From: Desulfocapsa sp.
Lineage (GTDB): Bacteria > Desulfobacterota > Desulfobulbia > Desulfobulbales > Desulfocapsaceae
Direction of reading: 5' to 3'
Assembly (NCBI GenBank): GCA_024763035.1
Contig: JANTGG010000006.1
Coordinates: 1-58,125, forward strand
Length of the DNA: 58,125 nt
Position numbers and translations under genes: made by a program. Shown piece by piece: positions 22,762-57,074 of the stretch (positions are counted from its first letter, which is position 1; the number at the start of each line of letters is the position of its first letter). The notes under the pieces are model-generated. The model was not told the DNA's origin and ran no database searches. It saw only the letters and a list, made by a program, of their open reading frames with translations.

Positions 22762-23724
22762 TTGGATATTTCGCTGATTATACCCATATTTAATGAAGAG
22801 GAAAATATACCGCTTCTTTATCAAGAGATTAGAGAGGTGATGGATGCCACCGAGTACAGTTATGAGATAATTTTTGTCGATGACGGTTCCAGTGACACTT
22901 CCGTACACGTTCTTGAAGCCATCAGTCAGGAAGAAGGTTCGAATGTGGTGGTTGTTGCATTGAGACGAAATTTCGGGCAGACCGCAGCCATGTCCGCAGG
23001 ATTTGATCATGCACAGGGAGATATAACCATTACCATGGATGGGGATCTGCAGAATGATCCCCATGATATCCCGGCCATGGTTGCCAAACTCAATGACGGA
23101 TACGACGTGGTTACCGGTTGGCGGTTTGATCGAAAAGATCCGTTTCTCTCCCGAAAACTGCCTTCCATGATGGCAAATAAACTGATTTCATGGGTGACCG
23201 GTGTTGGACTTCACGATTATGGCTGCACCTTAAAGGCCTTTCGCAGGGAAGTTACGGAAAATATCCATCTCTACGGGGAAATGCATCGTTTTATTCCTGC
23301 CATTGCCAGTGGTATGGGGATCTCATTTACCGAGGTAAAGGTGAATCATCGGGCACGCCGCTTTGGTACTTCAAAGTATGGAATATCAAGAACCATACGT
23401 GTGGTTCTTGATCTGCTGACCGTTAAATTCCTGCTCAGTTACGCCACCCGTCCCCTGCATGTTTTTGGAACTGTCGGTGTTTTGTCCACAGCACTTGGCG
23501 GGCTGATAGCCATGATTATGCTTATTCAGAGACAGTTCTTTGATATTGCCCTGGGGAACCGCCCCTTACTGCTGCTTGCCGTTCTGCTCATGTTCATGGG
23601 AGTGCAGTTTATCACCATGGGACTGCTGGCCGAGCTCGTTGTACGAACCTATCACGAGTCCCAGAAAAAGCCGATTTATTATATCCGTCGTGTATTTGGG
23701 CAGAATGGAGATATCTCCTGTTAG
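22762..23724 (+). CDS. Polyprenyl-phosphate glycosyltransferase (GT2, DPM1/GtrB-like)
   Basis: A family-2 glycosyltransferase of 320 residues with IPIFNEEENI at the start, FVDDGSSD, and MDGDLQNDP as the metal-binding DxD region. Two C-terminal membrane helices (near residues 235-255 and 268-290) give the GtrB/ArnC/dolichyl-phosphate-mannose-synthase layout, which loads a sugar onto undecaprenyl phosphate. The TTG start at 22762 has an AAAGGAG site upstream. Being 120 bases after the exporter, it may start a new unit of sugar-transfer genes. Confidence 0.88.
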   Translation: MDISLIIPIFNEEENIPLLYQEIREVMDATEYSYEIIFVDDGSSDTSVHVLEAISQEEGSNVVVVALRRNFGQTAAMSAGFDHAQGDITITMDGDLQNDPHDIPAMVAKLNDGYDVVTGWRFDRKDPFLSRKLPSMMANKLISWVTGVGLHDYGCTLKAFRREVTENIHLYGEMHRFIPAIASGMGISFTEVKVNHRARRFGTSKYGISRTIRVVLDLLTVKFLLSYATRPLHVFGTVGVLSTALGGLIAMIMLIQRQFFDIALGNRPLLLLAVLLMFMGVQFITMGLLAELVVRTYHESQKKPIYYIRRVFGQNGDISC

Positions 23725-23829
23725 TGCCTTATTCTTGAAAAGCTGTAATAAAAAAACACGAAGTTCCATACTCGCTTTAATGACAGAATGTTACAAATAT
23801 CACCAGATAGCGAGGCACGAGATCTTCGA

Positions 23830-23893
23830 GGCACTTATACCCCTCAAGGGGGTACTGAAAAGAGTGCCGGCTTACCGTTCATCACCGGTGTTA
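23830..23893 (-). repeat. Family C structured repeat, copy C1 (minus orientation)
   Basis: Read on the minus strand, it has the palindrome CACCGGTG, then GGTAAGCC, then a two-level hairpin: outer stem GGCACT with AGTGCC, inner stem TACCCC/GGGGTA around CTTGA. Over about 60 bases it is nearly identical to C4 at 56944. The 3' half seen in C2-C4 is missing or unrelated here. It lies between two glycosyltransferase genes and covers the gap before the GTG start at 23907. Confidence 0.75.
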
Positions 23894-42863: not shown

Positions 42864-42998
42864 CACCGACATCGGTGAAGATCGGTAAACCGATACTCTG
42901 TTTAGTAGCCCTTTAGGGGTGTAAGTATCCTGCAAATCATTTTCTTCCCCCCAAAAAAAACTGGTAAGAGAAGAGACTGGAAATATATCTGCAAGGTA
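42864..42998 (+). repeat. Family C structured repeat, copy C2 (prs leader)
   Basis: This has the palindrome CACCGA-CA-TCGGTG, a hairpin ATCGGTAAACCGAT, the outer stem GATACT (42892-42897) with AGTATC (42924-42929), and an inner hairpin around TTTA. The outer stem differs from C1 (GGCACT/AGTGCC) at two positions, yet both stay paired. The 3' part has GGTAAGAGAAGAGACTGG and ends at AAGGTAC. It fills half of the 274-base gap, ending 51 bases before prs. Confidence 0.7.
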
Positions 42999-46389: not shown

Positions 46390-46452
46390 TACCGGTAAAC
46401 ACGGGGGGTGGTGCTCTTTTCACTCCCCCCTTGAGGGTTTGGCAGGTACCCT
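46388..46452 (+). terminator. Hairpin after carD, possible degenerate family C copy
   Basis: GGGGGGTG pairs with CACTCCCCCC around a CTCTTTT-containing loop. Around it, ATACCGGTAA, GTGCTCTTTTCA and CCCCTTGAGGG match family C in order and spacing, so this may be a family C element now serving as the carD terminator. The T-run after the stem is weak. Confidence 0.45.
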
Positions 46453-56943: not shown

Positions 56944-57074
56944 AACACCGGTAATGAATGATAAGTCGGCACTCTTTTCAGTACCCCCTTGAGGGGTATA
57001 AGTAAACCGTATTAGAAATTTTCCTGAAAAAAACAGGTAAGCAAAGACTCCGAGAAAATTATTTGTAAGGTACT
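56944..57074 (+). repeat. Family C structured repeat, copy C4 (RHS-gene leader)
   Basis: AACACCGGTAATGAATGATAAG, then CGGCACTCTTTTCAGTACCC, CCTTGAGGGGTATAAGT: almost the same as C1 over 60 bases. The 3' half has ACAGGTAAGCAAAGACTCCGAG and TTATTTGTAAGGTAC as in C3 and C2. The outer stem is weaker (CACT/AGTA). It sits 171 bases before the RHS start, in the 410-base gap after pilR; the rest of the gap shows no gene. Confidence 0.75.

Follow-up and report, generated by a model that had tools for sequence, protein, structure and literature searches.

RESULTS

Family C copies in the window

The DNA analyzed here (the window) is a stretch of 58,125 nucleotides from Desulfocapsa sp. (contig JANTGG010000006.1). 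It contains dispersed copies of a repeat, family C, one of which (C2, 42864 to 42998, plus strand) is a decayed full-length element in the gap between tRNA-Gln and prs, while another (C3, 48302 to 48406, plus strand) lies upstream of rho. A tRNA gene is located just upstream of C2 (42700 to 42772), and the junction between this gene and prs is kept across the genus.

The best preserved copy in the window is C1, which an earlier sequence-only reading had described as a short copy at 23830 to 23893. It is in fact an intact full-length outer element of 173 bp (23721 to 23893, minus strand) that includes a perfect copy of a 27-nt core (23838 to 23864, minus strand). Its 3' module differs in type and ends in AAGGCACTAA (also given as ...TTATTACAGCTTTTCAAGAATAAGGCACTAA), and the element adjoins the stop codon (TTAG) of the preceding plus-strand open reading frame. 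C4 (56944 to 57076, plus strand) is nearly full length, with a perfect 27-nt core at 56972 to 56998 (plus strand) and a decayed 3' end (AAGGTACTCT). The core of C2 (42896 to 42921, plus strand), when read against the core consensus, is 26 nt long and has lost one base. The copy previously called a probable fifth (C5, 46388 to 46452, plus strand) does contain a core, at 46414 to 46440 (plus strand) with 3 mismatches, but it is degraded and its 3' module is not recognized. C3 is a core-less, or empty, form; set against filled copies, its empty core site lies between 48330 and 48331 (GGTA^TAAG). What had been described as a shorter stem in C3 reflects the absence of the 27-nt core.

A search of the window with a core 26-mer at ≤3 mismatches gave 3 matches (C1, C4, and C5) versus 0 expected, and the 5' hairpin was matched in C1 and C3, also versus 0 expected. 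When C2 and C4 were compared with their own genome, other copies were matched with E values down to 1.6e-15 and 1e-46, respectively. These matches confirm that the family exists as the earlier reading claimed. C2, C3, and C4 are decayed copies of it.

The outer element and its ends

A search of the genome and its relatives yielded more than 40 copies of family C in the window's own genome and others in most congeners and across the order. An intact outer element is 85 to 175 bp long, is preceded by CTAA, and terminates in ACTAA, with a hairpin on its 5' side and a long terminal stem. In the own genome we delimited 29 distinct outer elements with both ends, mostly of 85 to 173 bp, which start with (C)TAACACCGG and end with AAGGYACTAA (n = 29); the 5' hairpin sequence in this genome is CACCGGTGATGAACGGTAAGCCGG. 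Differences in length among them are accounted for by entire modules, namely the 27-nt core, a loop module of 17 nt (GGTAAGCGAAGACTCCG), and a 3' arm of two types. In other genomes the 5' hairpin differs and the plan of the element is unchanged, with CTAA on the left of 23 of the 28 delimited copies and ACTAA on the right.

The terminal stem ends in ...ACT(AA), and therefore the right end of the outer element re-creates CTAA; head-to-tail outer elements have a single CTAA in common (L004, L017, L023, and L035). Most of the own-genome copies (25/29) are intergenic, and the orientation of the surrounding genes is mixed. Several coincide exactly with a stop codon, either TAA or TAG, as expected if CTAA is the target.

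The 17-nt module is optional at AAAACA^AGAAAA, a site in the 3' loop: among own-genome elements it is found, for example, in L002 and L016, is inverted in L003, and is absent from L006, L015, and L022. A 20-bp match to it also occurs outside any family C element (G012, L174:2153-2172). This module may be a third mobile mini-unit.

The genomic consensus fold consists of the 5' hairpin, a central hairpin, and the long terminal stem (-40.5 kcal/mol). The compensatory outer stem proposed earlier (GGCACT/AGTGCC in C1 versus GATACT/AGTATC in C2) does not hold up in the larger set of copies. It is fully paired in 20 of 112 copies, and over 60 copies its three host pairs form 96 of 180 times versus 97 in shuffles, so that there is no covariation above shuffles. 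The AGTNCC segment assigned to that stem pairs instead with the 3' end of the element, where the outermost pairs of the terminal stem are AGT-NCCTT...AAGGN-ACT(AA). This stem occurs as GCCTT/AAGGC in 21 copies, ACCTT/AAGGT in 15, and CCCTT/AAGGG in 4. In the terminal stem, 264 of 300 cells are paired, compared with 225.6 ± 4.5 in shuffles (maximum, 245), and the excess persists after duplicate arm pairs are collapsed (122/150 versus 100.5 ± 4.1). The terminal stem therefore covaries, and this evidence is strong, but it is short of final because the shuffles leave the relatedness of the copies in place.

The 27-nt core as a separate unit

The core (CTCTTTTCAGTACCCCCTTGAGGGGTR) is an independent 27-nt unit that is nested in outer elements. 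A core-less counterpart, defined as the joined 13- plus 13-nt flanks matching within 3 mismatches, exists for 81 of the 159 distinct units, and the difference is always 27 nt; for several pairs of core and empty site, the flanks are identical at 26 of 26 positions. The core inserts precisely at GGYA^TAAR, a target consensus drawn from 35 flank clusters (A at -1 in 28/35), at several host positions and in either orientation. One such position (GGCA^TAAGT) follows the 5' hairpin and precedes the terminal stem, a second (CCTGCCR^GAAAAACGCAGG) is in the loop of the 3' hairpin, and a third (GGAGTA^AGGCACTAA) is near the 3' end. At CTGTCA^TAAAAAACAAG the core has the opposite orientation, and some cores adjoin another core. 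Cores are also found within unrelated REP-like hairpins (L232 and L233). A second host repeat family (TTATACCNCAAGGGCATAAGTTTCGTNNGAGCAGACNAGCTGCTCAACTCAGCTTTAT) either has a core at GGGCA^TAAG or has none (L079, L091, L092, L120, L124, and L129).

The right end of the core is GGTR whatever the left flank (GGCA, GGGA, GTCA, or AGTA). It is therefore borne by the element, and there is no target duplication. Because this end re-creates the target, cores stack in tandem: an exact tandem of four 27-nt units occurs in L225, and there are others. A contig of Desulfopila sp. IMCC35006 (contig 1, L123) carries outer elements in a tandem array, some with cores and some lacking them, and in its three-unit core stacks one stem pair is changed (CTCGCTTGACGGG versus CCCCCTTGAGGGG). 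Unpaired bases are slightly more frequent at core insertion sites than elsewhere in the host, which is a trend only (P = 0.09), and the strand of the core relative to GC skew has no bias in a small sample (17/40).

Distribution

The core 26-mer at ≤2 mismatches was detected in 54 of the 116 genomes of the window's order, and a reversed-pattern control was detected in none. An exact 33-mer occurs in 69 stretches of GTDB genomes, mainly metagenome-assembled genomes (MAGs) of Desulfobulbales and Desulfobacterales. It is also found in one named strain, Desulfopila sp. IMCC35006, which has 29 cores, and as a single copy in one MAG labeled Thermodesulfovibrionales, where contamination is possible. 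At the level of the phylum, a stricter 29-mer was present in only 2 of 297 sampled genomes. The 4.5-Mb MAG of Desulforhopalus sp. GLR1684 (WTAT01; G410) has 255 cores at ≤2 mismatches; many of its cores are nested, inverted, or in tandem, and there is a divergent subfamily, CTCAGTTCAGTGCCCCCTTGAGGGGTG. The family was not matched in the viral contigs, phages, and plasmids that we scanned, and a literature search found no paper on repeats of Desulfocapsa or Desulfobulbales.

The prs, rho, and other loci in relatives

The element is absent from the rho leader in 10 of 10 same-genus relatives, and in its C2 form it is absent from the prs leader in 9 of 9. The gap between tRNA-Gln and prs in G008 (L207) contains a solitary inverted 5' hairpin module, which is an independent event and suggests that this gap tolerates insertions. 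Another copy, on contig 93, has a dinG-like gene on one side and a polyprenyl synthase gene on the other, and several congeners have uninterrupted counterparts of this locus, which are clean empty sites.

DISCUSSION

Leader RNA or mobile DNA

The sequence-only reading offered two possibilities for family C, a functional RNA element in the leaders of prs, rho, and an RHS-like gene, or a mobile palindrome family. A cis-acting structured leader RNA, which would fold in the mRNA and regulate these genes, is suggested by the arrangement in the window, where three copies are indeed co-directional with the gene 51 to 171 bases downstream, but this arrangement is not conserved in congeners, whose rho leaders lack the element and whose prs leaders lack it in this form. 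Nor is the orientation of genes around the 29 delimited copies uniform, and several of these copies abut stop codons. C2, C3, and C4 fold no better than dinucleotide shuffles (z = -0.8, -1.3, and -0.6, respectively). The stem proposed in the earlier reading does not covary, and Rfam searches of the window, the C2 region, and intact copies were empty, in agreement with the earlier statement that no Rfam family fits. The terminal stem does covary, but this is also expected of a DNA palindrome family. Taken together, these results largely refute a regulatory leader RNA, which we regard as scarcely tenable. Family C is real, but as a dispersed, non-autonomous palindromic element and not as a leader RNA. 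The alternative of a mobile palindrome family is backed by the copy number, the precise empty sites, the CTAA-bounded ends, and the nesting.

If family C is mobile DNA, the question is by what means it moves. An ordinary MITE moved by a DDE transposase, with terminal inverted repeats and a target-site duplication, would be short, AT-rich, intergenic, and dispersed, as family C is, and family C is also bounded by a direct CTAA. However, the right tetranucleotide of the core stays GGTR for every left flank and hence belongs to the element, long terminal inverted repeats are absent (the 3' stem has no relation to the 5' hairpin), and the target is fixed, with no variable target-site duplication. 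A MITE of this kind is very improbable. It is also possible to do without a dedicated enzyme, if replication switched templates at hairpin-stalled forks through 4-nt microhomology at both ends, GGYA/GGTR for the core or CTAA for the outer element. This would account for the target's tetranucleotide at each end and for tandem stacks of exact period, and it is consistent with the lack of strand bias and of any associated transposase that we could find. A 4-base microhomology should not, however, yield identical 27-nt boundaries in hundreds of insertions throughout a whole order, and a load of 255 copies in a single genome points to a dedicated and efficient activity, so we consider template switching unlikely. 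The remaining candidate, that family C derives, as non-autonomous elements, from a specific IS200/IS605 or RAYT system in these genomes, seems to us rather unlikely as well. The combination of hairpins, a target tetranucleotide on the left, and a matching tetranucleotide at the right end is the IS200/IS605 rule (PMC6006769), and Y1_Tnp genes are present in most genomes examined. On the other hand, the ends of Y1 genes are without family C cores or modules, the one exception being a 20-bp stretch that matches the 17-nt loop module, and the family does not co-occur with Y1 genes: Desulfopila sp. IMCC35006 has its 29 cores and 0 Y1 matches, while the core-free genomes G030, G068, and G133 have 4 to 11 Y1 genes. 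The GTAG foot is absent, and the small sample shows no orientation bias (17/40), where a lagging-strand mechanism on single-stranded DNA would predict one. The parallel drawn in the earlier reading to IS200/IS605 or REP ends is thus unsupported.

Two other identities were rejected. An IS110 derivative was discarded, since PF01548 is unmatched in three core-rich genomes (G000, G016, and G354) and IS110 is absent from the window genome. The attC consensus of integrons includes GTTRRRY, which the 3' end of family C lacks.

A probable two-level family of mobile palindromes

In our judgment family C probably consists of very small, non-autonomous palindromic DNA elements that are mobile at two levels, the outer element and the core, and the copies near prs and rho are, with the same degree of confidence, old insertions and not regulators. 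This explanation draws on the observed dispersal, the precise presence or absence at both levels, the end rules, nesting, and stacking, the covariation of the terminal stem, and the non-conserved location. Against it, transposition was not observed. The repeats that hold empty and filled core sites are homologous, so some of the empty sites could reflect precise loss of a core and not gain. The only slight excess of unpaired bases at core insertion sites, the lack of strand bias in the small sample, and the distribution of Y1_Tnp, missing from one core-rich genome and present in core-free ones, also weigh against it.

We propose that both levels would be mobilized in trans by an activity that acts on folded single-stranded DNA. 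The element would be joined 3' of the target tetranucleotide and would bring its own matching tetranucleotide at the right end, a logic like that of IS200/IS605; an excised core circle would have the junction ...GGGGTR-CTCTTTTC. A search for the mobilizing gene through Y1, IS110, and cargo-bearing copies identified none. Among cargo-bearing outer elements there was no convincing case, and 5 long-range arm matches were few enough to be judged compatible with chance.

We put forward more tentatively the possibility that the 27-nt unit is itself a mobile element, in an order of sulfate reducers and also outside it, that it parasitizes other small palindromes and stacks by re-creating its target, and that its mover is an activity not described so far, neither Y1 (IS200/RAYT) nor IS110 nor a transposase that makes target-site duplications. 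If this is correct, the core ranks with the smallest mobile DNA units described; its ends, target, and empty sites are sharply defined, and some genomes contain hundreds of copies. The spread of very small repeats such as SDRs, GC clusters, and REPs would then become testable, since the target rule and the two ends have been defined and a host for such tests exists in Desulfopila sp. IMCC35006, a named strain with many copies in which Y1 transposase is undetected. A caution also follows against taking similar repeats in the leaders of important genes for regulatory RNAs.

Comparison with known repeats

BOX elements are modular composite repeats with optional modules between fixed ends. Family C resembles them in having optional modules between fixed ends and differs in that its central module also moves alone. 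Cyanobacterial SDRs are dispersed palindromic units of ~21 to 27 nt that are nested in other repeats and show exact presence or absence. They are reportedly the subject of Elhai et al. 2008 (Genome Res 18:1484). The SDR paper is cited as reference 43 of PMC3116915 and in the reference list of PMC3733652. Family C works like SDRs or REPs: as in SDRs, the core is a unit of 20 to 30 nt that is exactly present or absent at homologous sites and is nested in repeats. It differs from SDRs in phylum and probably in sequence, and also in its GGYA^TAAR target, its tandem stacks of exact period, and the dedicated outer element, which follows a separate end rule.

Like REP, BIME, and REPIN sequences (PMC3116915, PMC3733652, and PMC6006769), family C forms short intergenic hairpin palindromes in many copies, sometimes within other palindromes. 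In contrast to REPs and REPINs, the core and outer consensus have no GT[AG]G or CGTC foot, and there is no REPtron arrangement. Nor did we find, as for a RAYT-mobilized REP, a cognate Y1 transposase flanked by the repeat; in Desulfopila sp. IMCC35006 cores occur without Y1_Tnp. With IS200/IS605 miniatures, family C has in common the subterminal hairpins, the left target tetranucleotide with an element-borne match on the right (CTAA/CTAA and GGYA/GGTR), and the lack of a target-site duplication, whereas its ends are common to no Y1 gene in these genomes and it shows no strand bias in the small sample. One defining feature of IS200/IS605 membership is therefore present and another is lacking. 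By the tests made, family C belongs to no REP/RAYT, TSD-MITE, or Rfam family. Mitochondrial double-hairpin elements and yeast GC clusters (PMC2800124) are similar as tiny repetitive hairpins that are tandem and nested and whose stems are kept by complementary changes, but those are in mitochondrial DNA and their sequences are unrelated.

The window genome also has a standard REPIN-type family, seen on contig 43 (L034:1228-1502), where a GTAG-tagged REP dimer (GTAGGAGCTTGCCCCTGCGAGCG...GAGCTCCTAC) is inserted within an outer element.
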